From an uncultured Bacteroidia bacterium (GTDB taxonomy: Bacteria > Bacteroidota > Bacteroidia > Bacteroidales > UBA932), in NCBI GenBank assembly GCA_902788175.1, contig CADAJF010000012.1, positions 1 to 57,553 of the forward strand: a stretch of DNA of 57,553 bases, given 5' to 3'. The position numbers and the translations under genes are program-made. Numbering within the stretch: position 1 is the first letter of the stretch; every line of letters starts with the position of its first letter. Below are positions 30,053 to 53,570 of this stretch, piece after piece. The notes under the pieces were generated by a model. It did not search any database. It had not been told where the DNA came from and was given only the letters and a program-made list of their open reading frames with translations.

Positions 30053-30829
30053 ATGAAAAGAGTATTTATTGCAGCCATTATGGCTTTGGCCGTTGCCTGC
30101 TCTGGCAAAGACCCCGTGGAACTGTATGTTCCAAAGAACACCGTGGAGTTCGCCGGGAACGCCTTCACCGCTTTCAGCTTAGGTGCAGACGTAAAACTGT
30201 ACACCACCCCCAATCCGGACAAACCCCAGGAGTGGATGGTGCAGGGAGTAGTCCCTGTGCGCAAAGAAACCCAGGACCAGCTGTCTTCGCTGGATATCGA
30301 CCTGGTTCCCCTGGACGAAAGGGGCATCCGCGTCCGTGACAACTTTGTCCTCAGGGGAGAGGACCTGCAAAACCTCGTGCCCGTGTATAACGCCGGCGAG
30401 GATGTGGAACGCACCATCGTCTTCTCCGTAGTGGAAGGCGAAGGCGCCAAAAAGTACTTCACCTACAAAGAAGCGGCCGAAATCCTGGCTCACACCAAAG
30501 GCGTAAGGATGGACTTCAATGCAGAACTTGCCCAGCCTGAACCCGCCCAGGCCGAAGAGAACAACACCACTGCTGCCGCCAAAGGAACCCAGGAGGAATT
30601 CCCCATGACCCTGGATGGCCTGTGCCGCAAGTACGGCGTTTACGGCCTTCTGGCCCACTACGAAAACGCCATCAAAAACAAGGACAAAAAGGGCGCCAAG
30701 CGTATCGAGGACCAACTCTGGTCCATTGAGAAAAAAGTGAAGGCAGACCGCTCCATCCCCGAATCCCTCCGCGACCGTTTCAAAGACTACATCGAAGACA
30801 AAGAAGACGAAATCGAGGACCGGTATTAG
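30053..30829 (+). CDS. Lipoprotein of unknown function
   Basis: A 258-residue protein with a short lipoprotein signal peptide ([16 protein letters not shown], Cys16). Residues about 20-150 look beta-rich ([17 protein letters not shown], then [15 protein letters not shown]), a Glu/Pro/Ala-rich linker lies near 165-180, and the last 70 residues are strongly charged and helical ([20 protein letters not shown], ending [11 protein letters not shown]), suggesting a coiled coil. I do not recognise the family. It is monocistronic between the lysine operon, which diverges from it, and the fabG fragment/repeat block, which follows 32 bases after its stop. Probably periplasmic and membrane-anchored. Confidence 0.75.
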
Positions 30830-30861
30830 CGCCTGGTTGCCGCCGGCCCGTTTTCACCGGC

Positions 30862-31150
30862 GCCGCGCGGCCCCATTTCCTTGGCCACGGACTTGGCCAT
30901 GGCGATGAGTCCGGCCTTGGAGGCCGAGTAGTTCACCTGCCCGGGGTTTCCCGTCTGGCCGGCGATGGAAGCCATATTGATGATGCTGCCGCCCTTCTGC
31001 CGGGCCATCACAGGCACCACGGCGTGCAGGAAGTTGAAGGCGCTTTTCATGTTCACGGCAATCACGGCGTCCCACTGCTGCTCGCTCATGCGCATCACCA
31101 GGCCGTCCTTGGTGATGCCGGCGTTGTTCACCAGGATGTCGATTCGGCCG
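30862..31150 (-). pseudogene. Internal fragment of fabG flanked by repeats
   Basis: These 289 bases align without gaps to bases 45116-45404 of the intact fabG and encode an identical run of about 95 residues (roughly residues 83-178), including the NNAG motif and the catalytic Ser/Tyr/Lys. I count 11 base differences, all synonymous. The fragment lacks the cofactor-binding start and the C-terminus. At its 5' side it abuts the repeat array at a shared CGGCCGA; at its 3' side GCGCGGC joins a repeat-like CGCCGGTGAA. It lies in a 166-codon open frame (31326-30826) whose first 50 codons are translated repeat, but no functional protein is expected. Confidence 0.85.
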
Positions 31151-31151
31151 G

Positions 31152-31288
31152 CGGTGTACGCAGAAGGGGTGTTTTTGCGCACCGAAACGCCAAAATCGCC
31201 CGCCGGTGAACAAAATCGGCCGCTTTTGCGCACGGGAGGCCGAAAATCGCCCGGCGGTGAACAAAAATGGCCGCTATTGCGCACGGGA
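31152..31288. repeat. Array of three roughly 51-bp palindromic repeats (copy A)
   Basis: Three units begin at 31152, 31204 and 31255. On the minus strand each has the form GTGCGCAAAA, about 8 bases (GCGGCCGA or similar), then TTTTGTTCAC and a CG-rich tail, followed by a 19-21 base spacer of GGGCGATTTT type. The unit at 31152 is a variant carrying ACACCCCTTCTGCG in its middle. The array lies between the fabG fragment and the carB stop. The closest match is the block after intact fabG (45620-45752): about 90 bases there are nearly identical. Confidence 0.85.
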
Positions 31289-31322
31289 GGGGGGCGGGTG
31301 GGAGTAAGCCCCCGGCGCTTCA

Positions 31323-34300
31323 TCAATACTCGTCCCAGCTTTTGATGCCGATCTCGTCCTGTCCGACGGCGCAGAAAGCACGGATATAGGCTGTCGCCAG
31401 CCGGCTGTTGGTAATCAGCGGAACGTTGAAGTCAATGGCCGCGCGGCGCATCTCGTAGCCGTTGCTCAGTTCGCGGTGGGTAAAGTTCTTAGGAATGTTG
31501 ATGACCAGTTCCACCTCGTGGCGGCGGATCAGGTCAAGGGCGGCAGGTGTGCCTTCCTCCCGTTCATTCGGCCACAGGGCGCGAAGAGCCGGTACGCCGT
31601 TCTCGTTCAGGTATTTACAGGTCCCGCCCGTGGCGTAGATGGTGTAGTTCCTGCCCGCAAGCAGCTGGCACGCGGGAAGCAGATCGGCCTTTTGGATGGG
31701 GTTTCCGGAGGAGATGAGGACGGATTTTTCCGGAATGCGGTGCCCCACGGAAAGCATGGACTTGAGCAGCGCTTCGTTCAGATTGTCGCCGATACACCCC
31801 ACCTCGCCGGTGGAAGCCATATCCACGCCCAGTACAGGGTCGGCCTTGCCCAGGCGGGCAAAGGAGAACTGGGAGCACTTGATTCCGACATACTCCAACT
31901 CGAAGGGATCGATGTTGATTTTCTCCGGACGCTGGCCCAGCATGCAGCGGGTTGCCAGGTCGATAAAGTTGACCTTCAGGACTTTGGAAACAAAGGGGAA
32001 GCTACGGGAAGCACGGAGGTTGCACTCGATGACCTTGATGTAATTGTCGCTGGCCAGGAACTGGATGTTGAAGGGGCCGGTGATGTTGAGCTCGGCGGCG
32101 ATAGCGGCCGTAGTCTTGCGAATCTTGGCGGCCGTGATGCCGTAAATCTTCTGCGGAGGGAACTGGATAGTGGCATCGCCGGAGTGTACACCGGCAAACT
32201 CAATGTGCTCCGAGATGGCGTAGGCAATGACTTTTCCGCCGTCTGCCACAGCATCGCACTCCAGCTCCTTGCAGCGCTGCATAAAGGAGCTGATGACCAC
32301 CGGATGTTCCTCGGAGACCTCTACGGCCATATCCAGGAATATTCTCAGGTCCTCCTTGCTGTAACAGACGTTCATGGCGGCGCCCGAGAGTACGTAGGAC
32401 GGCCTGACCAGCACCGGGAACCCTACTTCATCGACAAACCTGTCCACGTCCTCCATCGTGGTCAGCTCGCTCCAGCGGGGCTGGTCAATGCCCAGTTTGT
32501 CCACAAACTGGGAGAATTTATTGCGGTCTTCGGCCCGGTCTATATTGTGCGCCGTGGTGCCCAGGATGTGTACGCCGGCGCGCATCAGCGGAATGGCCAG
32601 GTTGTTGGGAATCTGGCCGCCCACACTCACAATCACGCCGTAGGGCTTCTCCAGTCCGCAGATTTCCATCACGGTCTCAAAGCTGAGCTCGTCAAAATAG
32701 AGCCGGTCGCAGACATCGTAGTCGGTTGATACAGTCTCCGGGTTGTAATTGATCATCACCGCCTTGTAGCCACTGCTGCGCAAAGTGTTCAGGGCATTCA
32801 CCCCGCACCAGTCGAACTCCACGCTGCTGCCTATCCGGTAGGCGCCGGAGCCCAGGACAATCACGGTGTTGGACCCGTCGTCGAAGGTGATATCATCCAC
32901 CTCGCCGTTGTAAGTCATATAGAGGTAGTTGGTGGAGGAAGGGAACTCTGCGGCCAGGGTGTCAATCTGCTTGACATAGGGGCGAAGGCCCAGGAATTTG
33001 CGGTAGTCGCGCACCTTGGCCTCCGGAACATCCAGCACCCGGGCAATCTGGATGTCGGAGAAGCCCTGGCATTTGGCCATTCGGAGAAGGTCAAAGTCTA
33101 TGTCTGTCAGTTTCTTACAGGATTCCAGCTGCCGATAGGTGGTCTCGATGTTCCCAAGTTTCTCCAGGAACCAGCGGTCAATTTTGGTCAGCTCATAGAT
33201 GCGGTCCACTGAGTATCCAGCTTCGAGGGCGGCGGAGATGGCGAAGATGCGCATATCCGTGGGATTCCGCAGCATATCGTCCAGGTCCTCGCTTTTGAGG
33301 GGCTTATTGCACACGAACCCGTTGGCTCCCTGGCCAATCATACGGAGCCCCTTCTGCATGGCCTCCTCGAATGTGCGGCCGATAGCCATCACCTCGCCTA
33401 CACTCTTCATACTGGATCCTATCTTCCGGGAGACGCCCTTGAATTTGGCGAGATCCCAGCGCGGAATCTTGCAGACCACGTAATCCAGGGCCGGCTCGAA
33501 GAAGGCCGGGGTAGTCCTGGTCACGGTGTTGCGGAGCTCGTGCAGGCCATAGCCGAGACCGATCTTGGCGGCGATAAAGGCAAGTGGATAGCCCGTGGCC
33601 TTGGATGCCAAAGCGGATGAACGGCTTAGGCGGGCGTTGATCTCGATAACGCGGTAATCATCGCCGGCGGGGCTGAAGGCATACTGTACGTTGCATTCGC
33701 CGACAATACCGACGTGGCGCACAATCTCAATGGCTTTCTTGCGAAGGAAGTTGCACTCATCGTTGGTAAGGGTCTGGCAGGGGGCTACCACAATACTCTC
33801 GCCGGTATGGATGCCCAGCGGGTCGAAATTCTCCATATTGCAGACGGCGATACAGTTGTCGAAACGGTCCCGCATCACCTCAAACTCAATCTCTTTCCAG
33901 CCGCGCAGCGACTTCTCGACCAGCACCTGCGGCGAGAAGGAAAATGCCTTGCGCGCAACAGTTTCCAGCTCCGTCTCATTCTCGCAGAAGCCGGATCCCA
34001 GGCCGCCCAGGGCATAGGCGGCACGCAGAATCACCGGATAACCCACATCACGGGCGGCGGCGCGGGCTTCTTCCAGGTTGCCGGCCGGGTGGGATTTGAT
34101 GGTCTGAATGCCAATCTCGTCCATCCGCTGCACGAAGAGCTCGCGGTCTTCCGTGTCCATAATGGCTTGTACCGGAGTACCCAGCACCTGCACGCCGTTG
34201 GAGGCAAGGACGCCGCCTTTGTACAGTTCTACGCCGCAGTTGAGCGCCGTTTGGCCGCCAAAGGCCAGCAGAATGCCCTGCGGCTTCTCTTTCTTGATCA

Positions 34301-34526
34301 CTTTCTCCACAAAGAAGGGAGTAACCGGCAGGAAATAGACCTTGTCCGCCACGCCCTCCGATGTCTGCACCGTGGCAATGTTGGGATTGATCAGGACTGT
34401 CTGGATCCCCTCTTCACGCAGGGCTTTCAGGGCTTGCGAGCCGCTATAGTCGAATTCGCCGGCTTCGCCGATCTTGAGGGCGCCCGATCCGAGCACCAGC
34501 ACTTTTTTGATATCGGGATGGATCAT
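31323..34526 (-). CDS. carB: Carbamoyl-phosphate synthase large subunit
   Basis: A 1067-residue CarB with both ATP-grasp halves: an N-terminal half starting [23 protein letters not shown] and a second half with [23 protein letters not shown] near residue 560, an oligomerisation region between them, and a C-terminal MGS-like domain ([10 protein letters not shown] near 960). It makes carbamoyl phosphate from ammonia, bicarbonate and two ATP, with CarA supplying ammonia. Product goes to the acylornithine carbamoyltransferase of this operon and to pyrimidine synthesis. It overlaps carA by 4 bases and ends just before repeat array A, which may replace a normal terminator. Confidence 0.97.
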
Positions 34527-35605
34527 AGCTTGGAGATAAAGTCGTCAAAGATAAAATCGCTGTCTTCGGGGTCGCTGGAGACCTCCGGATGGAAGTGAGC
34601 GGAGAAATAGGGCTGGCTTTTGTGCCGGATTCCCTCGTTGGTGCCGTCGTTCATATTGATCAGGTACGGCTCCCAGTCTGCGGGCAGCGTGTCCGTGTCC
34701 AGCGCATAGCCGTGGTTCTGGACCGTGATGAAGCAGCGATCCGTGCCTGCCTGCCGCACGGGCTGGTTGTGGGACCGGTGGCCGTATTTGAGTTTGCTGG
34801 CCGATGCGCCGGCGGCGATTCCCATCAGCAGGCCGCCCAGGCAGATGCCGCAGATGGGCTTCCCGCCCGCGTGCATGGCTTGGCGAAGGTGCTGGACCGT
34901 CTCCTGGCAATGCGCCGGGTTGCCGGGCCCGTTGGAAATGAACAGGCCGTCCCACTCCAGCCGGTTGAAGTCGTAATCCCAGGGAACGCGGATCACCTCC
35001 ACGCCACGCCGGACCAGGCCGCGCAGGATTTGGTGCTTGACACCGCAGTCCACCAATACTACCTTTTTGTTCCCCTTGCCGTAGTGCATCACCTCTTTGC
35101 AGCTGACCAGGGCCACCTGGTTCTCGAGGTTGGGATCGGCCACGTCAAAGGTCCCGTCGTCCATCCCTTCGGGCACTATCTTGCCCAGCATCGATCCCTG
35201 TTCGCGCAAAATCTGTGTGAGCAGGCGGGTGTCGATGCCACAGATGCCCGGAACTTTCTGCTCCTTCATCCACTCGCCCAGGCTTTTGACGGCACTCCAA
35301 TGGCTGTATTCCTGGCTGTACTCGGTCACAACCAGGCCCCGGACATGGATTTTCCCGGATTCGTAGTTTTTGAGCAGGCCGTCCCCGTCGGTCTCCATCG
35401 GGGGAACGCCATAGTTGCCTATCAGCGGATAGCTGGCACAGAGAATCTGGCCGGCGCAGGAAGGGTCCGTAAGGCTTTCGGTGTAGCCTGCCATGGCTGT
35501 GGAGAAGACTACTTCGCCGTCGCACGGGCCGTCGTAGCCAAAACTCCAGCCCTCCATTTTACGTCCATTCTGCAGGACAAGCGTTGCTTTTTTACGTGTT
35601 GACAT
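34523..35605 (-). CDS. carA: Carbamoyl-phosphate synthase small subunit
   Basis: A 360-residue CarA: the N-terminal domain (GEVVFSTAMAGYTESLTDPS) followed by a class I glutamine amidotransferase with the nucleophile in CGICLGGLLMG near residue 250 and the His/Glu pair in AHFHPEVSS near 340. It hydrolyses glutamine and channels ammonia to CarB. It lies 6 bases after argB and overlaps carB by 4 bases, so both subunits are made from one arginine-type transcript rather than from a pyrimidine operon. Confidence 0.96.
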   Translation of the reverse strand: MSTRKKATLVLQNGRKMEGWSFGYDGPCDGEVVFSTAMAGYTESLTDPSCAGQILCASYPLIGNYGVPPMETDGDGLLKNYESGKIHVRGLVVTEYSQEYSHWSAVKSLGEWMKEQKVPGICGIDTRLLTQILREQGSMLGKIVPEGMDDGTFDVADPNLENQVALVSCKEVMHYGKGNKKVVLVDCGVKHQILRGLVRRGVEVIRVPWDYDFNRLEWDGLFISNGPGNPAHCQETVQHLRQAMHAGGKPICGICLGGLLMGIAAGASASKLKYGHRSHNQPVRQAGTDRCFITVQNHGYALDTDTLPADWEPYLINMNDGTNEGIRHKSQPYFSAHFHPEVSSDPEDSDFIFDDFISKL

Positions 35606-35611
35606 AGGATT

Positions 35612-36397
35612 TTATCTGACTGTTTTCAATTCTGTGCCGCCGGGGACGGCAAGGCCTTCGGCGCTGCGGATAACGACTCCGGACGCCCCGTCGCGCAGGG
35701 CTGCGAACGCGTTGTCCAGTTTGGGAATCATCCCGTCCTGGATGCGGCCTTCGGCTTTCAGCCGGACATATCCGTCCGGATCAAGGGAAGGGATGACGCT
35801 GCCGATGTCATTCCGGTCATACAGCACGCCACCTAGCTCAAAACAATAAAAGAGCTTTGCGCCCAGAGCAACGGAAACCGCGGCAGCCATCGTGTCGGCG
35901 TTGGTGTTGAGCAGCTGGCCGGCGCCGTCGTGGTTGATGGCGCAGAAAACAGGGGTGAGGCCGGCATCCAGCAGTTGCCGGATCAGCTGAACATTAACGG
36001 AAGCGGCCGTAACGTCTCCCACAAAGCCGAAATCCACTTCCGTCACGCCGTCGGAGAGGGTGAGGGGCGGCCGCTTGCGGGCCGTAATCACGCTCCCGTC
36101 ACAACCCGACAGGCCGATGGCGTTGCAGCCGTGGCGCTGCAGCCGGGTCACGATGTCCTTGTTGCACCAGCCGGCATAGACCATCGTCACCACCTCCAGG
36201 GTCTTCGCGTCCGTGACGCGGCGTCCCTCGATCCGGACGGGCTCCACGCCCAGCGCCTTCTGCACCTGGCTGGCGCGGACGCCGCCGCCGTGGACCAGGA
36301 CCTTCGGCCCCTCCAAAGCCGCGAACTCGGCGCAGAAACGCTCCAGGGCCGCCGGATCGTCCACGACCTTTCCTCCTATCTTGTAGAGGCGGATCAT
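35612..36397 (-). CDS. argB: N-acylglutamate kinase
   Basis: A 261-residue amino-acid kinase-family protein with the KIGGKVVDD start, KVLVHGGGVRASQ near residue 33, FVGDVTAASVNV and NADTMAAAVSVALGAKL. It phosphorylates N-acetyl- or N-succinylglutamate. In Bacteroides-type pathways the intermediate is succinylated; the sequence alone does not tell which acyl group is used. The start overlaps the argF' stop by 4 bases. Confidence 0.93.
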   Translation of the reverse strand: MIRLYKIGGKVVDDPAALERFCAEFAALEGPKVLVHGGGVRASQVQKALGVEPVRIEGRRVTDAKTLEVVTMVYAGWCNKDIVTRLQRHGCNAIGLSGCDGSVITARKRPPLTLSDGVTEVDFGFVGDVTAASVNVQLIRQLLDAGLTPVFCAINHDGAGQLLNTNADTMAAAVSVALGAKLFYCFELGGVLYDRNDIGSVIPSLDPDGYVRLKAEGRIQDGMIPKLDNAFAALRDGASGVVIRSAEGLAVPGGTELKTVR

Positions 36398-37356
36398 AGG
36401 CTCTCCAGCATCCGTTTCATCACCACCTGTGCCGACACGGTGCGGTTGGCCGCCTCGGGGATTACGATGCTCCGGGGCGAGTCGATGACCGCGTCCGAGA
36501 CAATCATGTTGCGGCGAACCGGCAGGCAGTGCATGAAGAAGGCATTGTCGGTCACCGCCATGTGGCGCTCATCCACGGTCCAGCTCCTGTCCTTGCTCAG
36601 CACCTTCCCGTACTGCGCGGGATCCGTGACGCCGGGGCAGCTCCAGTTCTTGGCATAGACAAAGTCGGCTCCCTCCAGGGCCTTCATCTGGTCGTATTCG
36701 ACACGGGCGTTGCCGACGAAAGCCGGATCCAGTTCATACCCGCGGGGGTGCGTGATGACAAAATCGACATCGGCCGCATTCATCCATTCGGCGAAGGAAT
36801 TGGGCACGGCCTGGGGCAGGGAATTCGGATGCGGGGCCCAGGTCATCACCACCTTCGGCCGCTTCTTTTCCTTGTATTCTTCGATGGTGATGAGGTCGGC
36901 GAAAGCCTGGCAGGGATGCACCGTGGCCGACTCCAGGCTGATGACGGGCTTCCCGCCGTATTCGATGAACTGGCGGAGCACGCTCTCGTTGTAATCGAAC
37001 TCGCGGTCCTTCAGGCCGGCAAAGGAGCGGATGCCGATCAGGTCGCAGTAGCTGGTCATCACGGGGATGGCCTCGCGCAGGTGCTCGGATTTGTCGCCAT
37101 CCATCACCACGCCCATTTCGGTTTCAAGCTTCCAGCTGTCCTGGCCGATGTTGAGCACTATGGGATTCATCCCCAGGTTGAGTGCCGCCTTCTGGCTGCT
37201 CAGGCGCGTACGGAGACTGCTGTTGAAAAAGACCAGCATAATGGTCTTGTCCTGTCCAAGGTGCTTCCAGGCAAAAGGCGTGGCCTTCACCTGCCGGGCT
37301 TCCTCAAGCGCTGCGCCCAGGTCGCCGATGTCGTTGACGTGAAAGAATGTTTTCAT
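36394..37356 (-). CDS. argF': N-acylornithine carbamoyltransferase with Ser at the specificity position
   Basis: A 320-residue member of the N-acetyl/N-succinylornithine carbamoyltransferase group, clearly not classical OTCase: FFNSSLRTRLSSQKA near residue 43, TEMGVVMDGDKSEHL at 79-93, MTWAPHP near 180 and FMHCLPVRRNMIV near 280. I start it at 37356 (MKTFFHVND); the longer frame adds 19 unrelated residues and the chosen ATG overlaps the argD stop as ATGA. Counting from this start, residue 90 is Ser. This is the position reported to set specificity: Pro90 in the Bacteroides fragilis succinylornithine enzyme, Glu92 in the Xanthomonas acetylornithine enzyme. The substrate is therefore uncertain. 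Confidence 0.93.
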   Translation of the reverse strand: MKTFFHVNDIGDLGAALEEARQVKATPFAWKHLGQDKTIMLVFFNSSLRTRLSSQKAALNLGMNPIVLNIGQDSWKLETEMGVVMDGDKSEHLREAIPVMTSYCDLIGIRSFAGLKDREFDYNESVLRQFIEYGGKPVISLESATVHPCQAFADLITIEEYKEKKRPKVVMTWAPHPNSLPQAVPNSFAEWMNAADVDFVITHPRGYELDPAFVGNARVEYDQMKALEGADFVYAKNWSCPGVTDPAQYGKVLSKDRSWTVDERHMAVTDNAFFMHCLPVRRNMIVSDAVIDSPRSIVIPEAANRTVSAQVVMKRMLESL

Positions 37357-38477
37357 ACGAGTAGTTTGTTGAATGTTCTGAGGAAATGGTCTGCCTGGGC
37401 TTTTGTCAGGCACAGGGGCGGAAGAAGCCGGATCATATTCTGACCGGCGACCCCGGTGAAGATGTGGTTGTCATACAGCAGTGCCCGGCGCAGGGGAGCC
37501 ACAGATTCGGCCATTTCGATGCCAATCATCAGTCCCTTGCCGCGTACCTCCTTGATGCGGGGGCTTCGGGGCAGCGATGCCATGATATGCTCTCCGACGG
37601 AGAGTGCGTTGGCCATCAAGTCCTCCTGTTCAATGATGTCGAGAACGGCCAGCGCGGCAGCGCAGGCAAGGTAGTTGCCGCCGAAGGTAGTGCCCAGCAT
37701 CCCTTTCCGGGCCTGGAACTGCGGAGCAATCAGGATGCCGCCGCAGGGGAAGCCGTTGGCAATCCCCTTACCCATCGTGATGATGTCCGGACGGACGCCC
37801 GTCCACTGGTGGGCGAAGAACTTGCCGGTGCGGCCGTAACCGCTCTGCACTTCGTCCAGGATGAGGACGGCCCCGTGCCGCTTGCACAGCCGGGAAAGGT
37901 CCTGGAGGAATTCCTGCGAGGGCACATGGATGCCGCCGCAGCCTTGAATGCCCTCCACAATCACGCCGGCAACATCTCCCCGGGCAAGTTCCGCCTCCAC
38001 GGCGGCAGCATCACCCAGCTCGCAGAACGTTACCTTGTGTTGCGCGTTGAAAGGGGAGACGATGGCCGGATTGTCGGTCATTGCCACGGCACCGGAGGTG
38101 CGGCCGTGGAAGCTCCGGCGGAAGGCGATGATGCGGTCCTTTCCCGTGTGGAAGGAGGCCAGTTTGGCGGCATTCTCGTTGGACTCCGCGCCGCTGTTGT
38201 CCAGAAAAAGGGAATAGTCCCCGTAGCCGCTGGCTTCCCCAATGCGGCGTGCCAGTTCCTCCTGGAGCGGATTGCGCACGCTGTTGGAGTAGAATCCGAT
38301 CCTGTCCAGCTGCTCCTTGAGCGCGGCGACATAGCGGGGATGCGAATGCCCGACGGAGATAACCGCATGGCCGCCGTAAAGGTCCAGGTATTCCTGTCCT
38401 TTTTGGTCCCACACCGTGCAGCCCTGCGCCCGTACGGGCGTAACGTCGAAGAGGGAATATACGTCAAAAAGTTCCAT
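37353..38477 (-). CDS. argD: N-acylornithine aminotransferase
   Basis: A 374-residue class III PLP-dependent aminotransferase: LDLYGGHAVISVGHSHP near the start, NSGAESNENAAK near residue 94, LILDEVQSGYGRTG near 198 and the PLP Lys in TMGKGIANGFPCGG near 230. It interconverts N-acylglutamate semialdehyde and N-acylornithine. It starts 8 bases after argC and overlaps argF' by 4 bases. Confidence 0.95.
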   Translation of the reverse strand: MELFDVYSLFDVTPVRAQGCTVWDQKGQEYLDLYGGHAVISVGHSHPRYVAALKEQLDRIGFYSNSVRNPLQEELARRIGEASGYGDYSLFLDNSGAESNENAAKLASFHTGKDRIIAFRRSFHGRTSGAVAMTDNPAIVSPFNAQHKVTFCELGDAAAVEAELARGDVAGVIVEGIQGCGGIHVPSQEFLQDLSRLCKRHGAVLILDEVQSGYGRTGKFFAHQWTGVRPDIITMGKGIANGFPCGGILIAPQFQARKGMLGTTFGGNYLACAAALAVLDIIEQEDLMANALSVGEHIMASLPRSPRIKEVRGKGLMIGIEMAESVAPLRRALLYDNHIFTGVAGQNMIRLLPPLCLTKAQADHFLRTFNKLLV

Positions 38478-38485
38478 ACAGTCTG

Positions 38486-39433
38486 TTAAAATGCCGATGC
38501 CTTCAGCCTGAGGCCTGCCGTCTCGGGAAGGCCGGTCATCAGGTTCATGTTCTGAACCGCCTGTCCGGACGCTCCCTTGAGCAGGTTGTCAATTACGGAG
38601 GTGATTACCAGCGAGCTGCCGTGCTTTTCCGGGAATACGATGCATTTGTTGGTGTTGATCACCTGTTTGAGGTCTACCGGGCGGTCGGAAACGAAAGTGA
38701 ACGCCGCATCGGCGTAGTAATCCCGGTAGAGCTTCAGGACCGCCCCGCCGTCCAGCGGACAGTCCAGGGTGATGGAAGCGAAGATGCCGCGGGCATAGTC
38801 GCCCCGCATGGGGACAAAGCGGATGTCCTCAAAACCGAGGTTGCGCCGAATTTCCAGAAGGTGCTGGTGCTCAAATACTTTGTAGGTGGAAAGATTGCCT
38901 GTACGCCAGCTGAAATGCGTTGTGGCGGACGGCTTGACACCAGCGCCCGTAGCGCCGGTGAGGGCCGTCACGTGGACGCAGCCCCCCAGCAGGCCAGCGG
39001 CCGCCAGGGGCAGCAGGCCCAGCTGGATGGCCGTTGCAAAGCAGCCCGGATTGGCCAGCTTCTGCGCGGAGCGGATTTCCTCGCGCCGCCACTCGGGAAG
39101 GCCATAGACGTAGCCTTCGGCCCCGTCGCGGTAGTCCTGTGCCAGGTCCACTACCTTCAGGCCTGCCGGGCAGGCGTTTTCCGCCCAGAACTCCCGGCTC
39201 TTTCCGTGCGCCGAGCAGAGGAAAAGCACCTCCACGGAATGAAGGTCATAGCTTTCGCTGAAGCGCATCTGCGTGTCCCCGAAAAGGCCGCTGTGGACCT
39301 CCCAGAGCTGCTTGCCTGCGTTGCTGCCGGAATGCACGAAGGTGATTTCCACCTCCGGGTGGTTCACCAGGATGCGGAGAAGTTCACCCGCCGTGTACCC
39401 GGCGCCGCCGATAATGCCGATTCTCTTTTTCAT
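38486..39433 (-). CDS. argC: N-acyl-gamma-glutamyl-phosphate reductase
   Basis: A 315-residue ArgC with RIGIIGGAGYTAGELLRIL at the N-terminus, the active-site Cys in NPGCFATAIQLGLLPL near residue 130, and TGATGAGVKPSATTHF near 160. The start at 39433 is supported by the 4-base overlap with the GNAT stop; an upstream extension would duplicate GNAT coding sequence in another frame. It reduces N-acylglutamyl phosphate to the semialdehyde. Confidence 0.95.
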   Translation of the reverse strand: MKKRIGIIGGAGYTAGELLRILVNHPEVEITFVHSGSNAGKQLWEVHSGLFGDTQMRFSESYDLHSVEVLFLCSAHGKSREFWAENACPAGLKVVDLAQDYRDGAEGYVYGLPEWRREEIRSAQKLANPGCFATAIQLGLLPLAAAGLLGGCVHVTALTGATGAGVKPSATTHFSWRTGNLSTYKVFEHQHLLEIRRNLGFEDIRFVPMRGDYARGIFASITLDCPLDGGAVLKLYRDYYADAAFTFVSDRPVDLKQVINTNKCIVFPEKHGSSLVITSVIDNLLKGASGQAVQNMNLMTGLPETAGLRLKASAF

Positions 39434-39990
39434 ATTTCCGGATGATGGATGGTCAGATGTTCCCTGGGGTCGTACAGCAATCCGGTGCAGATGCACATCT
39501 TGTAGTCGTGGCTTTGCAGGATGTCAAAGTGGCGGCAGCCCTCGCAGCCCTTCCAGAACTCCGGATCGTCCGTGAGTTCGGTGAAGGGGACCGGCCGGAA
39601 GCCGAATTCATAGTTCATCTTCATCACGGCGGCACCCGTGGTGATGGAGAAGATCTTGGCATCCGGGAAGAGTTTGCGCGAGAGGATGAAAGTCTGCTCC
39701 TTGATGCGTTTGGCAATGCCCATACCGCGGAATTTGTGCGCGACGATGAGGCCGGAATTGGCGACGAAACTCTTTCCGCCCCAGGACTCGATGTAGGAAA
39801 AACCGGCGAATTCCCCTTCATCGGACAAGGCGATTATCGCTTTGCCGGCGAGAATCTTCTCGTCGATGTACTGCGGGGTACGGTTGGCGATACCGGTTTT
39901 GCGTTCAAGCGAGGAAATGTAGATTTCCCGGCAGATTTCTTCATTATAGCGGGTGTGGTTTGCATCGGCCACCATGACATGGATGTTCAT
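39430..39990 (-). CDS. GNAT acyltransferase, candidate N-acylglutamate synthase
   Basis: A 186-residue GNAT-fold protein with IIALSDEGEFAGFSYI as the central strands and HKFRGMGIAKRIKEQ near residue 85 as the acyl-CoA pyrophosphate loop. Near the C-terminus, CEGCRHFD and the Cys in KMCICTGLLYDP form a four-Cys set that could bind zinc. It is the first gene of the arginine operon, where an enzyme making N-acetyl- or N-succinylglutamate is otherwise missing, so I infer that it is the first committed enzyme, as for the equivalent GNAT in Bacteroides arginine clusters. No clear TAnnTTTG promoter was found upstream. Confidence 0.75.
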   Translation of the reverse strand: MNIHVMVADANHTRYNEEICREIYISSLERKTGIANRTPQYIDEKILAGKAIIALSDEGEFAGFSYIESWGGKSFVANSGLIVAHKFRGMGIAKRIKEQTFILSRKLFPDAKIFSITTGAAVMKMNYEFGFRPVPFTELTDDPEFWKGCEGCRHFDILQSHDYKMCICTGLLYDPREHLTIHHPEI

Positions 39991-40206
39991 AGGTATACAA
40001 TAAGGCCCCTAACGGCAAGACAAACCGAGATTGTCAATTGCTATTGTCGGGCGAAAATTCAAAAATGGGGACAGCACGCTGAATTTCCGGAGATGTGGGA
40101 GGGTTCTACGCCTCCTATCTTCGGTCTCGTCTGGAATATGAGCGGCTCACGAATGACATAATTTCTGCAAACATAATTAAAAATTTTTAAAATCTCAAAT
40201 AATAAT
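39991..40206. other. Intergenic block with a structured element upstream of the arginine operon
   Basis: No gene was found here. The stretch 40087-40124 folds on either strand: CCG, AGAT and GGAGG pair with CCTCC, ATCT and CGG around an 8-base loop GTTCTACG, with small internal loops. A second small palindrome, TGAGCGGCTCA, lies at about 40139-40149. The GC-rich block (about 40060-40160) contrasts with the AT-rich sequence on both sides, which looks more like an inserted or repeated element than an ordinary leader. Confidence 0.5.
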
Positions 40207-40238
40207 GAAAAAACTCGCGCAAAACATTTTTACGCGAG
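40207..40238 (-). terminator. Intrinsic terminator after the DUF456 gene
   Basis: On the minus strand CTCGCG, TAAAAATGTTTTG and CGCGAG form a hairpin with extra A-T pairing, followed directly by six T. It lies 28 bases after the DUF456 stop at 40266. Confidence 0.8.
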
Positions 40239-40265
40239 CATGTAAAGGGTATGCCAGAAAAGTTC

Positions 40266-40760
40266 CTAGAAGGCGTAAATCACAATGTAGAAGAGCATGA
40301 CGCCGGCGCAGATTAGTTTGGCGCCGGTGCCAAAAATGAAGCCCAGGAAAGCGCCGAAGGCAGATTTTACCGAATCCGCTCCGGTTTTGCCGTCCAGCAG
40401 GAGTTCTGCCAGGAAGGCACCCAGAAGGGACCCCAGGATCATGCCCAGCGGCGGGTAGATGAGGCCCAGGAAAAGACCGGCGATGGCCCCCAGGCCGCCC
40501 CATCGGCTGCCCCCTGTAAGGCGCGTAAAGTATGCGGGGACAATGTAGTCCAGGATGCTAACCAGGACCACTATGCCCAGCCACACCAGCAGCAGGGTGA
40601 TACCCATGGGTTCTCCTGCACCGTTGGAGCCGTCGCCCCAGATGTAAAGGAGCAGCATGCCCAGCCAGCTTAGAGGCGGCCCGGGGAGGGCAGGCACAAC
40701 ACTGCCGACGATCCCTACAATGCCCAGCACAATGGCCAGGATAGCGATAAAGGTTTCCAT
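40266..40760 (-). CDS. DUF456 family membrane protein
   Basis: A 164-residue, strongly hydrophobic protein with four to five predicted membrane segments and the glycine-rich GSVVPALPGPPLSWLGML signature near residue 18 typical of DUF456. A second glycine-rich repeat (GGLGAIAGLFLGLIYPPLGMILG) follows the motif GGSRWG. The function is unknown. It starts 3 bases after the aminopeptidase gene and is probably co-transcribed with it; a strong terminator follows. Confidence 0.85.
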   Translation of the reverse strand: METFIAILAIVLGIVGIVGSVVPALPGPPLSWLGMLLLYIWGDGSNGAGEPMGITLLLVWLGIVVLVSILDYIVPAYFTRLTGGSRWGGLGAIAGLFLGLIYPPLGMILGSLLGAFLAELLLDGKTGADSVKSAFGAFLGFIFGTGAKLICAGVMLFYIVIYAF

Positions 40761-40763
40761 ACG

Positions 40764-42149
40764 CTAGCGGGCCATGGCGGCTTCTACATCTTCCGGGCTG
40801 ATGGGCAGGCGGCCGTGACCCAGGCGGCGTGCGCCTTCCGGGGTGATGAGGATGTCGTCTTCCAGGCGGATGCCGCCAAAGTCATAATAGCCCTCCAGCT
40901 TGGCGTAGTTCACAAAGTTTCCGCCCAGGCCTTCCTTCTTGAATTTCTCTATCAGGGCCGGGATGAAGTAGATGCCGGGTTCGTCGGTGATGACGTGACC
41001 GGGGCACAGGCGGCGGGCCATGCGTAGCGAGCGAAGGCCCAGCTGCGTGGCGCGGGTCTGGTCCGGGTCATAGCCCACCAGGTTCTCTCCCAGGTCTTCC
41101 ATGTCGTGGACGTCCAGGCCCATGTTATGGCCCAGGCCGTGCGGCTGGAACAGACCGGCGATACCGGCTGCGAGCATCTCCTCCAGGTCTCCGTGGACCA
41201 GCCCCAGCGCGCTGAGGCTCTCCAGCATCTTGCGGGCCGTTGCCAGGTGTACCTCCCGGTAAGTGATGCCGGGCTTGCACAGGGAGTAGGCCAGTTCATT
41301 GCACTCATAGACAATCTGATAGATTTCCCGCTGCTTGGTGGTGAACTTGCCGCTGGTGGGATAGGTGCGCGTGAAGTCCGAGGCATAATGCTCATTGCTT
41401 TCTACGCCGGCGTCCACCACCAGCAGTTTGCCGGGCTCGATGATGGCAGCGTGCCCGTGGTTATGCAGGGTTTCTCCGTGCTGGGTGAGGATGGTGGGGA
41501 AGGCAGCGCCCCAACCCTTGGCCAGTGCCACGCCTTCCATCTTGCCCACGATTTCCTGCTCTACAATACCCAGCCGAATGGCGTCACGGGCTACGGAGTG
41601 CATCTCTATGCCCAGGTCACAGGCGTGGTCAAGCGCCTCTATCTCAATGTCTTCCTTGATAAGGCGCATGGAAACGACGGCCTTTATGAGGGCCTCTGAG
41701 GGCGCCGCACCCGGTAACAGGGCCGCCAGTTTCATGGTGTTGAAATAGCGGGTGGGCGGCAGGAAATGCACAGCCCTGCCGGACTTGCAGGCCAGCGCCA
41801 CGGCGTTACCCACAGCGCCATAAGGGGCCGAATGTTCCACCCCCGTGGAATCCGCCTTGGAACGGACCGACGGCTGGGGACCCATCCAGATAATATCGTC
41901 AATGTCAACGTCGTCTGCGTATAGAGTCTCTGCGCCGGAATCGATGTCCAGGGTGGCGGCCATCAGGGGTTCATCCAGGCCAAAATAGTACAGCCAGCAG
42001 CTCTCCTGGCGCCATTTGTAGTAATTGTCCTTGTACTGGGCCGGAGCCTCGGTGTTGCCGATAAAAAGAATCAGGCCGCTCTGGCCGGCCTCCCGCATCT
42101 TGGCCAGCAGCGTTTCGCGCCGGCGCACATATACTTCCTTTGCAAACAT
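40764..42149 (-). CDS. pepP: M24B aminopeptidase P-like Xaa-Pro peptidase
   Basis: A 461-residue M24B enzyme: an N-terminal creatinase-like domain and a C-terminal pita-bread domain with the metal ligands visible in LVVDAGVESNEHYASDFTRTYP near residue 243, HGLGHNMGLDVHD near 350, ITDEPGIYF near 405 and GIRLEDDILIT near 438. It removes the N-terminal residue from peptides with proline in position two. It is cytoplasmic, with no signal peptide. It is transcribed divergently from ahcY; a TATCTTTG motif lies 20 bases before the start. Confidence 0.93.
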   Translation of the reverse strand: MFAKEVYVRRRETLLAKMREAGQSGLILFIGNTEAPAQYKDNYYKWRQESCWLYYFGLDEPLMAATLDIDSGAETLYADDVDIDDIIWMGPQPSVRSKADSTGVEHSAPYGAVGNAVALACKSGRAVHFLPPTRYFNTMKLAALLPGAAPSEALIKAVVSMRLIKEDIEIEALDHACDLGIEMHSVARDAIRLGIVEQEIVGKMEGVALAKGWGAAFPTILTQHGETLHNHGHAAIIEPGKLLVVDAGVESNEHYASDFTRTYPTSGKFTTKQREIYQIVYECNELAYSLCKPGITYREVHLATARKMLESLSALGLVHGDLEEMLAAGIAGLFQPHGLGHNMGLDVHDMEDLGENLVGYDPDQTRATQLGLRSLRMARRLCPGHVITDEPGIYFIPALIEKFKKEGLGGNFVNYAKLEGYYDFGGIRLEDDILITPEGARRLGHGRLPISPEDVEAAMAR

Positions 42150-42169
42150 AGTTTATCGTTTATTTCCCC

Positions 42170-42198
42170 CAAAGATACGAAACTTTTTCGTAACTTTG
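42170..42198. promoter_or_regulatory. Back-to-back -7 elements for pepP and ahcY
   Basis: On the minus strand TATCTTTG (42177-42170) serves pepP; on the plus strand TAACTTTG (42191-42198) serves ahcY, whose ATG follows only 7 bases later, implying a nearly leaderless ahcY message. Neither has a clean TTTG at -33, so the assignments rest on the -7 motifs. Confidence 0.55.
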
Positions 42199-42205
42199 TG
42201 TCCTT

Positions 42206-43447
42206 ATGGAAAGTCACATCAAAGATATCAACCTGTGGGAAAGCGGAGAGCTCAAACTCAGCTGGGTCCGCAGCCACATGCCCCTGCTGGAGGGCATCCG
42301 GAAGGATTTTGAAAAAACGCAGCCGTTCAAGGGGCTCAAAGTAGCCCTGAGCATTCACCTGGAGGCCAAAACCGCCCACCTGTGTGAGGTTTTGGCAGCC
42401 GGCGGGGCGCAGATGTACATCACCGGCTCCAACCCCCTCAGTACGCAGGACGACGTAGCCGCCGCCCTGGTGCACCAGGGCCTGAATGTATTTGCCATCC
42501 ACGGCTGCAGCGAGGAAGATTATTTCCAGGACATCCGCCGCGTGCTGGAGGCAGGCCCCAACGTAATCATCGACGACGGAGGAGACCTGGTCACCACCCT
42601 GCACAAGGAGTTCCCCCAGCTGCTGGACCAGGTGATCGGCGGCTGCGAGGAAACCACCACCGGCATCCTGCGCCTGAAAGCGATGGATGCAGCAGGTGCC
42701 CTGAAATTCCCCATGATGCTGGTCAACGACGCCAATTGCAAGCACCTGTTTGACAACCGCTACGGCACGGGCCAGAGCGTCTGGGACGGCATCAACCGCA
42801 CCACCAACCTGATAGTGGCCGGCAAAACCGTAGTGGTGGCCGGTTACGGCTGGTGCGGCAAGGGCGTGGCCATGCGCGCCAAGGGCCAGGGCGCCAAAGT
42901 AATTGTGACAGAAGTAGATGCCGTGAAGGCCATGGAGGCCGTCATGGACGGTTTCAAGGTGATGCCCATGCTGGAAGCCGCGGCAGAGGGAGATTTCTTC
43001 GTGACGGTCACCGGCTGTGAGGATGTAGTGGGTCCGGAGCACTTCCTGCGCATGAAGGACGGCGCCATCTGCTGCAATGCAGGCCACTTCGATGTAGAGG
43101 TGGCGGTGGCGCGGCTCAAGGCCATGGCGGTGAGTCATCGGCCCGCCAGAAACAATATTGAGGCCTATACCCTGGAAAACGGCCGAACCATTTACATCAT
43201 CGCGGAGGGACGCCTGGTGAACCTGGCCGCCGGCGACGGTCACCCCGCAGAGATCATGGACATGTCCTTCGCCATCCAGGCGCTCAGCGCCCGCTACCTG
43301 GTGGAAAACCGGGGCAAACTTAGCCAGAACCTCAACCAGGTCCCCGCTGCCGTAGATCAGGAAGTGGCCCGCCGCAAACTGGAGGACTGGGGCATTGAGA
43401 TAGACCACCTTACCCCGCAACAGTCCCAATACCTTTACGGAGCGTAA
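42206..43447 (+). CDS. ahcY: Adenosylhomocysteinase, short form
   Basis: A 413-residue S-adenosylhomocysteine hydrolase: ALSIHLEAKTAHLCEVL near residue 45, the NAD-binding VVVAGYGWCGKGVAMRAKGQGA near 210, and ICCNAGHFDVE near 288. It splits S-adenosylhomocysteine into adenosine and homocysteine, relieving inhibition of methyltransferases. At 413 residues it lacks the roughly 40-residue insertion and the C-terminal KPDHYRY of the long bacterial/eukaryotic form and instead ends TPQQSQYLYGA, resembling the short archaeal/Thermotoga-type enzymes. Its stop shares a base with the nhaA start (TAATG). Confidence 0.94.
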   Translation: MESHIKDINLWESGELKLSWVRSHMPLLEGIRKDFEKTQPFKGLKVALSIHLEAKTAHLCEVLAAGGAQMYITGSNPLSTQDDVAAALVHQGLNVFAIHGCSEEDYFQDIRRVLEAGPNVIIDDGGDLVTTLHKEFPQLLDQVIGGCEETTTGILRLKAMDAAGALKFPMMLVNDANCKHLFDNRYGTGQSVWDGINRTTNLIVAGKTVVVAGYGWCGKGVAMRAKGQGAKVIVTEVDAVKAMEAVMDGFKVMPMLEAAAEGDFFVTVTGCEDVVGPEHFLRMKDGAICCNAGHFDVEVAVARLKAMAVSHRPARNNIEAYTLENGRTIYIIAEGRLVNLAAGDGHPAEIMDMSFAIQALSARYLVENRGKLSQNLNQVPAAVDQEVARRKLEDWGIEIDHLTPQQSQYLYGA

Positions 43448-44874
43448 TGGCACTGATCCCCGTCCATTGGTGGACCAAGGAAGTCCACTCTTTCCAGATA
43501 TCCCAGGACAAATTCCGCAAACAGCCCTGGGCAGGCGGCGTAACCCTGCTGGGCTGCGTGGTGCTGGCCATGCTGCTGGCCAACCTGCCTTTTACCAAAC
43601 ACGCCTACCATAACTTCCTGCACACGGAATTTACCATTCACCTGGCCTCACCGGACGGCCTGGTGGATTGGTTCTTCCCCCGGGGGATGACCATGGAAAA
43701 GTTCATCAACGACATCCTCATGGTCGTTTTCTTCTTCACGGTGGGCCTGGAAATCAAGCGGGAAGTAGTGTGCGGGGAACTCTCCTCCTTCAAGAAAGCC
43801 ATCCTTCCGGTGATAGCGGCTTTGGGCGGAGTAGCTGTCCCGGCGCTGCTGTATTTCCTGGTAAACAAGGGAACGCTGGCCGCTTCCGGCTGGGGCATAC
43901 CCACTGCTACGGATATTGCCTTTGCTATCGGCATCCTGTCCATCCTGGGAGACAAAGTGCCGGTCTCGCTGAAGGTCTTCCTCACAGCGCTGGCCATCGC
44001 CGATGACCTCATTGCCATCCTGGTGGTGGCGCTCTTCTACGGCGGCAGCATCAATTTACCGCTGTTGGCCCTGGCCCTGGCGGTCATCCTTTTTGTGGCG
44101 CTCATCAAGCACCTGGGAGAAAAGCGGATCAGCTTCTACATTGTGCCCGCTGTCATTGTCTGGTTCCTGTTCTACTACAGCGGCATCCATGCCACCATGA
44201 CAGGCGTGGTGATTGCCATGCTCATCCCCATGGAGGCCCGCTACAACAAGGCCAAGTTCCATCGCCGGGCCAAAATCCTCTATGAAGGCCTGCTGGAAGC
44301 CGAAAAAGTCCACACCTCAGAGGACTTCCCCAACGGCCCGGAGCGCTACTACCTGCGCCGCCTCAGCAGCCTTACCAAGAAAACCATCCCGCCGTCTTAT
44401 CGGCTGGAACACAAGCTGAATCCCATTGTCAATTTTGCCATCATGCCCGTCTTTGCCCTGGCCAATGCGGGGGTGGAAATTACGGACATCTCCTATTTTA
44501 ACGTCTTCAAGGCCATAGACCCTGTGCTGGGCAGCGTGGGCCTGGGCATTTTCCTGGGCCTGGTGCTGGGAAAGCCGCTGGGCATCACGGCAGCTTCTTG
44601 GCTGGCCATCAAATGCAAGGTAGGCGATATGCCCTCCAAGGCCAGCTGGCCCATGCTGTTTGCCGTTGCCTGCCTGGGTGGTATCGGCTTTACCATGAGC
44701 ATTTTTGTAGATACGCTCTCGTTTGCAGGGCCGGAGGTTGCACCGGAAGTGACGCAGACGCTTCGCGATGCCGGCAAGATAGCCGTGCTGCTGGGCTCGC
44801 TCTGCTCAGGCATTCTGGGCTCGCTGCTGATTAGCCTGACAGCCAAAGTGAACAATAAAACTGACTCTATATGA
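43447..44874 (+). CDS. nhaA: NhaA Na+/H+ antiporter
   Basis: A 475-residue membrane protein with about 11-12 hydrophobic segments. NhaA signatures are FFFTVGLEIKREVV near residue 95, GWGIPTATDIAFAIGIL near 150 and FLTALAIADDLIAILVVALFY near 178, where the adjacent Asp-Asp pair is the ion-binding site. A long hydrophilic insert near residues 270-315 (RRAKILYEGLLEAEK) is common in Bacteroidota members. It exchanges sodium for protons at alkaline pH. It is coupled to ahcY (TAATG) and to fabG (ATGA). Confidence 0.95.
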   Translation: MALIPVHWWTKEVHSFQISQDKFRKQPWAGGVTLLGCVVLAMLLANLPFTKHAYHNFLHTEFTIHLASPDGLVDWFFPRGMTMEKFINDILMVVFFFTVGLEIKREVVCGELSSFKKAILPVIAALGGVAVPALLYFLVNKGTLAASGWGIPTATDIAFAIGILSILGDKVPVSLKVFLTALAIADDLIAILVVALFYGGSINLPLLALALAVILFVALIKHLGEKRISFYIVPAVIVWFLFYYSGIHATMTGVVIAMLIPMEARYNKAKFHRRAKILYEGLLEAEKVHTSEDFPNGPERYYLRRLSSLTKKTIPPSYRLEHKLNPIVNFAIMPVFALANAGVEITDISYFNVFKAIDPVLGSVGLGIFLGLVLGKPLGITAASWLAIKCKVGDMPSKASWPMLFAVACLGGIGFTMSIFVDTLSFAGPEVAPEVTQTLRDAGKIAVLLGSLCSGILGSLLISLTAKVNNKTDSI

Positions 44875-45617
44875 AACTCTTAGAAGGAAAAGTGGCGCTC
44901 ATTACGGGCGCTGCACGGGGTATTGGCAAGGCCATCGCCCTCAAATATGCCCAGGAAGGTGCCGCTGTAGCCTTTACGGACCTGGAAATCAATGAAGCAG
45001 CCCAAGAGACCGTAGCCCAGCTGGAGGCTTTCGGCGTTCCGGTCAAGGCCTATGCCTCCAACGCCGCGGACTTTGAAGCCACCCAGGCCGTGGTGGAACA
45101 GGTAGTGGCCGATTTCGGCCGAATCGACATCCTGGTCAACAACGCCGGCATCACCAAGGACGGTCTGGTGATGCGCATGAGCGAGCAGCAGTGGGACGCC
45201 GTCATTGCCGTCAACATGAAAAGCGCCTTCAACTTCCTCCATGCCGTAGTGCCCGTGATGGCCAGGCAGAAGGGCGGCAGCATCATCAATATGGCTTCCA
45301 TCGCCGGCCAGACGGGAAATCCCGGGCAGGTGAACTACTCGGCCTCCAAGGCCGGACTTATCGCCATGGCCAAGTCCGTGGCCAAGGAAATGGGGCCGCG
45401 CGGCATCCGGGCCAATTCCATCGCGCCCGGTTATGTGATTACGGAAATGACCGAAGTCCTGCCCCAGGCCGTTAAGGACGAGTTCGTGAAGCTGATTCCC
45501 CTGAAGCGCGGCGCCACCGTGGAGGAAGTGGCCAATGTAGCCCTCTTCCTGGGCTCCGACCTCTCCTCCTACGTCACCGGCCAGGTCATCGCCGTCAACG
45601 GCGGCATGTACTGCTAA
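44871..45617 (+). CDS. fabG: 3-oxoacyl-[acyl-carrier-protein] reductase
   Basis: A 248-residue short-chain dehydrogenase with the cofactor motif TGAARGIGKAIA at 13-24, NNAG near 88, catalytic Ser near 143 (NMASIAG), and YSASKAG near 156. It ends VIAVNGGMYC, as in FabG. It reduces 3-oxoacyl-ACP in fatty-acid synthesis. Its start overlaps the nhaA stop by 4 bases. A 289-base internal part is present again at 30862-31150, with identical translation but 11 synonymous changes. Repeat array B begins only 2 bases after its stop. Confidence 0.95.
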   Translation: MKLLEGKVALITGAARGIGKAIALKYAQEGAAVAFTDLEINEAAQETVAQLEAFGVPVKAYASNAADFEATQAVVEQVVADFGRIDILVNNAGITKDGLVMRMSEQQWDAVIAVNMKSAFNFLHAVVPVMARQKGGSIINMASIAGQTGNPGQVNYSASKAGLIAMAKSVAKEMGPRGIRANSIAPGYVITEMTEVLPQAVKDEFVKLIPLKRGATVEEVANVALFLGSDLSSYVTGQVIAVNGGMYC

Positions 45618-45619
45618 TC

Positions 45620-45752
45620 CGTGCGCAAAAGCGGCCGATTTTGTTCACCGCTGGGCTGATTTGGCGTTTCGGTGCGCAAAAACACCCCTTCTGCGTACAC
45701 CGGCGGCCGATTTTGGCGTTCCGGTGAACGGGAAGGGGGTGTTTTTGTGCAC
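45620..45752. repeat. Palindromic repeat block (copy B) with long inverted repeat
   Basis: Starting 2 bases after the fabG stop, a GTGCGCAAAA...TTTTGTTCAC unit and a variant unit with ACACCCCTTCTGCG reproduce about 90 bases of copy A (31152-31288, opposite strand). The variant unit (45672-45703) is followed, after 17 bases, by an inverted version (45721-45752); 26 of 32 positions can pair. The block fills the convergent gap between fabG and guaA, apart from the last 18 bases, and may act as a two-way terminator; a five-T run lies inside the right arm. Confidence 0.85.
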
Positions 45753-45770
45753 GCCGGGGCTACCGCCGGG

Positions 45771-53493: not shown

Positions 53494-53539
53494 GCCTCCA
53501 TGATAACTAAGTAGCTGACTCTCAGGCGTATCCTGAAAC

Positions 53540-53570
53540 CAATCGTTGCAAATTGCAACGATTGATTTTT
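53540..53570 (+). terminator. Perfect palindrome after the serpin gene, probable terminator
   Basis: CAATCGTTGCAA (53540-53551) and TTGCAACGATTG (53553-53564) are exact inverted copies around one base, followed by ATTTTTG. The hairpin plus T-run fits termination 47 bases after the serpin stop; a protein-binding operator is an alternative because the symmetry is almost perfect. Confidence 0.6.

Follow-up and report, generated by a model that had tools for sequence, protein, structure and literature searches.

Two sites in one Bacteroidales contig carry the same palindromic DNA at gene ends, and both adjoin fabG sequence. What is this repeat, does it move, and did it bring the piece of fabG with it? 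The window, that is, the whole stretch of 57,553 nucleotides analysed here, is contig C12 of an assembly of an uncultured Bacteroidia bacterium that comprises 58 contigs and 2.09 Mb and is 84.5% complete.

Anatomy of the repeat in the window

Both sites are built on a 28-bp imperfect palindrome, GTGnnCAAA-n10-TTTGnnCAC, set in 51-bp units. With at most one mismatch it occurs at window positions 31206, 31257 and 45621, compared with a mean of 0.005 occurrences in 200 Markov shuffles. Site A (31152-31284, minus strand) consists of two complete palindromes and one variant end unit. The unit at 31234-31284 (-) joins the palindrome at 31257-31284 to a 23-bp second half and is matched by a 51-bp sequence model at 31235-31284 (E 2.3e-13), and the unit at 31183-31233 (-) has its palindrome at 31206-31233, followed again by the second half (model match 31184-31233, E 5.0e-14). 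The variant end unit, GTGCGCAAAAACACCCCTTCTGCGTACACCG, lies at 31152-31182 (-), lacks both the GGCC core and TTTTGTTCAC, and has counterparts at 45672 and at other arrays. Site B (45621-45752) holds one complete palindrome, in a unit at 45621-45671 (+) that begins 4 bp past fabG (model match 45621-45670, E 3.6e-11), and two end units in mutually opposite orientation. All three matched units belong to the training set of the model. The opposed end units (45672-45752) resemble a REPIN doublet: their 32-nt arms are 81% complementary, so that an 81-bp hairpin is possible, and the predicted DNA fold of 45670-45755 has z = -6.8, while the array of site A as a whole folds no better than its shuffles (z = -0.9). 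Each 51-bp unit has two symmetry centres, 25-26 bp apart.

The first-pass annotation of this DNA had described three units of about 51 bp at 31152-31288, each with a CGGCCG core, and about 90 bases almost identical between the sites. The near-identity is borne out (83 of 89 bp), as is the 51-bp spacing of the palindromes at both sites; the third unit of site A proved to be the variant end unit, and the CGGCCG core, exact in the palindromes at 31206 and 45621, is missing from that at 31257 and variable across 36 units of the genome.

A dispersed family of 51-bp arrays

The same repeat occurs throughout the genome. A search with the palindrome pattern matched 61 times on one strand and 59 times on the other, most palindromes being counted on both, and the reversed pattern gave 0 and 0. 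The 51-bp model, built from 36 units of 16 arrays that match it by construction, yielded at least 131 strand-matches at E <= 0.01, which we grouped ourselves into at least 26 sites, two of them in the window; this is a lower bound, 150 of 1405 candidates having been scored, and the evidence for each of the sites C1:100695 and C25:20314 is a single partial match. The suspicion that the family is dispersed thus holds: further copies abound, and simple duplication of one site is ruled out by the number of sites. CRISPR was likewise rejected, for the 23-bp stretches that separate the palindromes resemble one another across units and are not unrelated spacers.

We examined the context of 23 sites (leaving out C1, C5:80827 and C25), two of which lie at contig edges. 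Spacing at these sites is 51 bp, apart from two 52-bp steps and two weak off-register matches, and array size ranges from 1 to 13 units, with the variant end unit at or in at least nine of the 23. The best conserved letters across the 36 units are GTGC-CA-A and TT-G--CAC-G. Units are 86% identical inside one array (36 pairs) and 67% identical between arrays (594 pairs), which indicates that arrays grow locally. None of the 23 sites lies inside a gene called by a simple codon-usage gene caller, although the ORF that it called over the fabG fragment extends about 30 bp into the array of site A. The family therefore has the size, copy number and placement of REPs (palindromes of 20-50 nt in many extragenic copies), with a 28-bp palindrome at no fewer than 26 sites and none of 23 in called genes. 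It also has the regular spacing, alternating orientation and frequent tandem repetition of BIMEs, here as 51-bp arrays of up to 13 units with two symmetry centres.

The 36-unit consensus has neither a GT[AG]G nor a CGTC tag where the hairpin begins; the feet of the first palindrome read GTGC and CAC[CG]G. Among 45 units, pair 5/24 of the palindrome is Watson-Crick in 2 (10.4 expected) and G-T in 17, units of one array not being independent; counted over the 36 units of 16 arrays, it is Watson-Crick in 2. Pair 29/51 is Watson-Crick in 11 of 45 units (22.2 expected, with the same non-independence), and pair 4/25 has no deficit (18 of 45, 19.3 expected). Rfam gave no match above gathering score in 30700-46000, and our literature searches returned no description of this 51-bp repeat family. 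At two sites, on C28 and C2, the non-coding array flanks (L178:1-254 and L183:1346-1647) are also 76% alike over 302 bp, so these two sites may share an ancestor.

RAYT-like genes lie between arrays

Allowing for a mobile or recombinogenic element family, the first-pass annotation had pointed to a linked nuclease, integrase or transposase as a check. A candidate lies outside the window, on contig C17, where a RAYT-like HUH gene (G000:C17:37779-38741, minus strand) is flanked on both sides by arrays of the window family. These arrays (C17:39338-39416 and 36686-36815) are in inverted orientation, 597 and 963 bp away. The gene was recognised by a profile, A3, made from nine proteins of a congeneric RAYT clade that we call clade X (E 4.6e-33), and by the motifs NHFH and AYVIRN. 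Its surroundings correspond to a REPtron, a gene flanked by cognate repeats, with other ORFs between array and RAYT: a menA-type prenyltransferase-like gene and a smaller ORF, both named by eye, also lie between the arrays. If 26 sites were scattered at random, arrays would fall in both gaps with a probability of about 9e-5 per gene, and the genome has three known RAYT-like genes. Given this linked gene and the number of sites, we consider the family dispersed and probably mobile.

A second RAYT-like gene, also found with profile A3 (C21, 2148-2951), lies between two arrays of another sequence (GGGGGCnC...TGCCCCC) that has the same period of 51. Tandem Repeats Finder placed these arrays at 1870-2080 and 3193-3333 (L253), and left and right are only loosely alike. 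An HUH-type gene thus adjoins arrays of each of two repeat families in this genome.

The C17 protein, of about 300 aa, is RAYT-like as judged from its motifs, its profile match and its neighbourhood rather than from a curated model. N64, H65, H67, Y123, R126 and N127 are invariant across six aligned rows including our own, so that HxH and YxxRN are shared by all six proteins; the C17 protein and its nearest matches are labelled clade Y, a label given without a tree. In clade X the corresponding residues are N48, H49, H51, Y109 and N113 in nine aligned rows. Against Pfam the C17 protein has no match, and against the NCBIfam model REP_Tyr_transpos (NF047646) it scores 17.9 bits, the cut-off being 80. 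Two clade-X proteins score 23.0 and 26.9 bits against PF01797 (cut-off 23), and the clade-X profile found only weak hits among PDB sequences, the best being the IS200-type transposase 2xo6 (E 0.15). Both the C17 and the C21 gene are more distant RAYT-like genes that the PF01797 search had missed and the A3 profile found. Since our own enzyme falls under standard annotation cut-offs, the system may be overlooked in gut Bacteroidales.

The gene on C3 that does match PF01797 (L141) was considered as the cognate enzyme and rejected: it has no window-family array near it, belongs to another clade and has a local hairpin past its end. In that third RAYT-like clade, the loci L141 (G000:C3:37513), L146 and L156 each have a strong hairpin, specific to the gene, no more than about 30 bp past the ORF, and the next gene looks by its sequence like rpmH.

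RAYT loci and repeats across the genus

We extended the comparison to genome sets of 200 and 150, both of which include our own genome. The Y1 transposase model PF01797 has matches in 113 of 150 genomes, our own among them. The core CAAAANNNGCCNNTTTTG occurs in 59 of 200 genus genomes, again including our own, with 337 strand-matches in the 58 congeners and 21 for the reversed control over 200 genomes (our own count); outside the core, the arms vary between genomes.

At 30 PF01797 loci from 12 genomes chosen for carrying the core, the palindrome with the CAAAA-nn-GGCC-nn-TTTTG core lies within the 1.5-kb flanks of five, on both sides in G019, G038 and G156 and on one side in G255 and G206. All five belong to clade X, that is, five of nine clade-X loci compared with none of the 21 other RAYT loci. 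Among 15 further stretches around RAYT-like genes, the core with at most one mismatch is present in seven (G163, G204, G227, G209, G005, G210 and G192) and absent from eight. Taken together, at this tolerance, the core lies on both sides of the RAYT in G019, G038, G156, G005 and G204, and on one side, within about 200 bp, in G163, G206, G209, G210, G227, G192 and G255.

The link between RAYT genes and repeats also appears when no particular sequence is prescribed. We compared 42 RAYT loci with 45 guaA loci, which remained after 18 of 60 and 35 of 80 had been dropped as too short. The 60 RAYT loci were two sets of 30, the second drawn from ten repeat-carrying genomes (our own and nine with cores and no clade-X gene). 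Since those ten genomes were chosen for their repeats, and the clade-X profile came from genomes chosen for cores, this sample favours repeats. Left and right flanks share 14-mers at 27 of 42 RAYT loci, compared with 3 of 45 guaA loci, many of which come from other phyla, and 99 of 2000 mismatched pairs of RAYT flanks, a control that lies within the RAYT loci. Common flank words are lacking at 15 of the 42, including both of our own loci, whose arrays differ too much from left to right. Arrays with a period of 50-53 bp were found by Tandem Repeats Finder at 11 of 42 RAYT loci (both of our own included) versus none of 45 guaA loci, with periods peaking at 51 and 52; at 31 of the 42 it found no such array. 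The 25 usable loci of the first set of 30 alone gave common 14-mers at 16 (p 5e-7) and 50-53-bp arrays at 6 (p 0.0014), both versus guaA.

Core and clade X are also associated across genomes. The best matches to the clade-X profile, which itself comes from genomes chosen for cores, at E <= 1e-145 coincide with the core in 15 of 18 genomes, compared with 43 of 181 other congeners, and without the seven genomes that supplied profile rows in 8 of 11 (p = 0.0013); this cut-off gave the strongest result among four E-value cut-offs and two core counts tried. At E <= 1e-100 the association is weaker (31 of 80 vs 27 of 120, p 0.017, with our own core-positive genome counted as negative). Nine genomes with at least two cores have no clade-X match at 1e-100, yet each of the nine matches A3 more weakly, and genes of this weaker kind adjoin 51-bp repeats in G204, G163, G247, G080 and G244.

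Origin of the fabG fragment

The fabG fragment reported at site A is real: 289 bp at 30862-31150 (-), of which 278 are identical to the intact fabG called at 44871-45617 (+). All 11 differences are synonymous, and the best fabG match in other species is 91% (199 congeners), compared with 96% for the fragment; from these two observations the most likely source of the fragment is a functional fabG within the species, and slow decay is the less likely origin. The fragment is joined to the end unit at CGGCCGA, a 7-bp microhomology common to array and gene. It had been proposed from this heptamer that recombination takes place at the core. The heptamer is indeed shared at the junction, and it argues little for a special recombination site because it occurs 14 times in the window (TCGGCCG 13 times); recombination at the core is possible, though the junction is an ordinary 7-bp microhomology. 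At the far end of the fragment, 30838-30861 (-) may be a degenerate REP remnant, GCCGGTGAAAACGGGCCGGCGGC, a weak resemblance read by eye.

The further proposal that the family could move host gene segments found no backing in the part of the genome compared. When the 500-bp flanks of the 23 sites were compared with 243,389 bases of the genome (about 12%), fabG was the sole gene piece recognised beside an array, and the other flank matches were repeats, the non-coding C2/C28 flanks or weak matches. The piece, as distinct from the repeats, could be an assembly chimera in which sequences from two strains of the species were fused at the repeat, which we hold to be possible rather than probable. 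The exclusively synonymous differences are those expected between functional alleles, the 96% identity exceeds that of any other species, near-identity over about 90 bp is typical of places where assemblies go wrong, and the assembly is fragmented and incomplete; yet two separate junctions would need to be wrong, and the far end of the fragment does not lie in a full-length repeat. We favour such a chimera or a separate microhomology rearrangement at the array over capture borne by the element, in what is a single case, and by either route the source is most likely a fabG allele from within the species. Through the site A array runs an open frame of 166 aa (30826-31326, minus strand), which reads there as 17-aa repeats and continues in frame into the fabG fragment; because 51 = 3 x 17 keeps the frame through the units, this in-frame join may be chance.

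Gene-end context and alternative roles

Both window sites lie between intact convergent genes (names assigned by eye): site A between a hypothetical gene (30053-30829, plus) and carB (31323-34526, minus), site B between fabG (plus) and guaA (minus). The convergent placement noted before is thus correct for the window; family-wide it is enriched and not the rule. The 21 sites with both neighbours were called as 8 convergent, 11 tandem and 2 divergent, and 8 of 21 exceeds the 22 convergent among 157 other adjacent gene pairs of the same regions (p = 0.011), or 9 of 21 (p = 0.003) once site A is recounted as convergent, the fabG fragment having been scored as a gene by the caller. The GuaA encoded in the window shares 92-95% identity with that of 12 assemblies, mostly ruminant, deposited as Prevotella, Prevotellaceae, Bacteroidaceae or Bacteroidales. 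None of the 15 best Bacteroidales guaA loci (L029-L043, flanks of up to 3 kb, some less) has fabG beside guaA, so site B has no base-level counterpart among them. The hypothetical gene beside site A is present in 2 of 90 other genomes searched and in G037 adjoins ahcY. Sites A and B look like synteny breaks in this lineage, and we draw no conclusion from this.

This placement invites the reading that the arrays are mainly regulatory, as bidirectional terminators or mRNA 3'-end stabilisers selected at gene ends, with the RAYT neighbourhood incidental. The convergent enrichment and the strong hairpin at 45670-45755 fit it, and such roles have been put forward for REPs (PMC3733652). However, a crude consensus scan of 30500-46500 for the intrinsic terminator form (a GC-rich stem, then a T run) placed none of its 13 hits on either window array, which sets aside the dispersed terminator of the first-pass annotation as the main reading. 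Site A folds no better than chance, a single site may hold as many as 13 units, and other RAYTs, unlike guaA, have 50-53-bp arrays of differing sequence in their flanks. We therefore regard a mainly regulatory role as unlikely. That the arrays are binding sites for a nucleoid- or partition-type DNA-binding protein seems to us more improbable still: 51 bp is about five helical turns, the half-sites are conserved and the 51-52-bp period is nearly constant across different sequences, but the arm sequences vary between genomes and occur beside the local RAYT, and here two sequence families with one period coexist, each around its own RAYT-like gene. We think it likely, instead, that the repeats are REP/BIME-type palindromes, spread and amplified with the help of the RAYT-like protein encoded on C17.

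Relation to known systems and proposed mechanism

The spread of REPs by RAYTs is still largely inferred, and we know of no case in which insertion of a REPIN has been observed. Excision of REPINs has been seen in sequencing reads, as PMC3116915 relates. In E. coli, TnpA-REP cuts and joins its REPs, which carry a conserved mismatch required for activity (PMC8266576). By analogy with E. coli TnpA-REP and with IS200/IS605, the palindromes would fold when the strand is single, during replication; the HUH protein would recognise the imperfect hairpin, cut beside it and join the freed end at another place, preferably near the 3' end of a gene. Growth of the arrays in place could follow, in 51-bp steps, through slippage, unequal recombination or repeated strand transfer. 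The low Watson-Crick count at pair 5/24 is a sign toward a required mismatch of the E. coli type, with pair 4/25 showing no deficit and the units not independent. We infer mobilisation of the repeats by the RAYT from this parallel.

Like E. coli REPs and BIMEs with TnpA-REP, the repeats described here are many extragenic imperfect palindromes in alternating orientation and tandem copies, and as in the E. coli REPtron the gene of an HUH protein has its own repeats around it. Unlike them, they have no GTAG tag, a 51-bp unit with two centres and a variant end unit, and the protein, of about 300 aa, scores below the NCBIfam cut-off. The REPINs of Pseudomonas fluorescens SBW25 are comparable in that doublets form long hairpins and are linked to a RAYT, and that genome also has REPINs clustered in tandem and a small number of REP arrays with even spacing; in the account of PMC3116915, however, doublet distances there are commonly 71 and 110 bp and depend on the family, whereas here 51-52 bp recurs in differing sequence families. 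TnpA-Y1 subclass 2.6 of Bacteroidetes shares the phylum and flanking repeats without GT[AG]G, copies of which occur elsewhere in the genome, as sketched in PMC6006769. Compared by motif alone, the NH[LIV]H and YIH[QN]NP given there for subclass 2.6 are not those of the C17 protein (NHFH, YVIRNA), while clade X has NHVH and mostly YVQMN; clade-X elements mostly begin with [AG]GTGC and end with GCAC, as judged on the consensus and by eye. CGTC-tagged REPs are extragenic palindromes too, and the TIRYT/TIRtron genes described alongside them in PMC3733652 are RAYT-like with non-GTAG flanks; the array consensus here is without the CGTC tag.

REP, BIME, REPIN and RAYT are thus already known, as are, from what PMC6006769 sets out, non-GT[AG]G repeats beside Bacteroidetes TnpA-Y1. 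As far as our literature searches show, what is new is these repeat families together with the divergent enzymes, and most of all the 51-52-bp period that differing sequences have in common. The missing GT[AG]G/CGTC tag, the near-fixed period and an enzyme below curated cut-offs point to a new variant of the REP/RAYT-type system.

A bolder, and on balance doubtful, extension is that a large branch of HUH RAYT-like proteins has gone unannotated in ruminant-gut Bacteroidales and that the repeats of this branch hold to a 51-52-bp two-centre period irrespective of sequence. In this reading the enzyme, perhaps as a dimer that holds two hairpin feet some five helical turns apart, would measure the period and build the arrays, and array rearrangements could leave gene pieces such as the fabG fragment. 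If true, this would be enzyme-built tandem DNA, which is not described for RAYTs in the literature that we examined. RAYT-like genes are numerous in this one genus, and a good many of them adjoin repeats that differ in sequence from gene to gene at nearly the same spacing, which offers a natural series for what the enzyme reads: hairpin, foot or spacing.

Other repeats

A second palindromic element of about 110 bp, with the core TCAATCGTTGCAA-n-TTGCAACGATTGA, has 11 copies in 243 kb of the genome, one of them at window 53504-53609, and often adjoins 51-bp arrays (C2, C4, C8 and C17). The flanks of the C17 arrays (L187:4200-4620 and 7480-7690) match each other as inverted copies over 222-322 bp, at 81-83% identity, and the C17 segment with the RAYT could be invertible. 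These flanks include GTCATGCCCGGC...GACCGGGCAT palindromes that by eye resemble CGTC-type REPs and that we take to be a separate element. Another dispersed repeat is a 120-bp stretch that is 99% identical between contigs C4 and C39 (L174:18770-18890 and L179:2079-2198).
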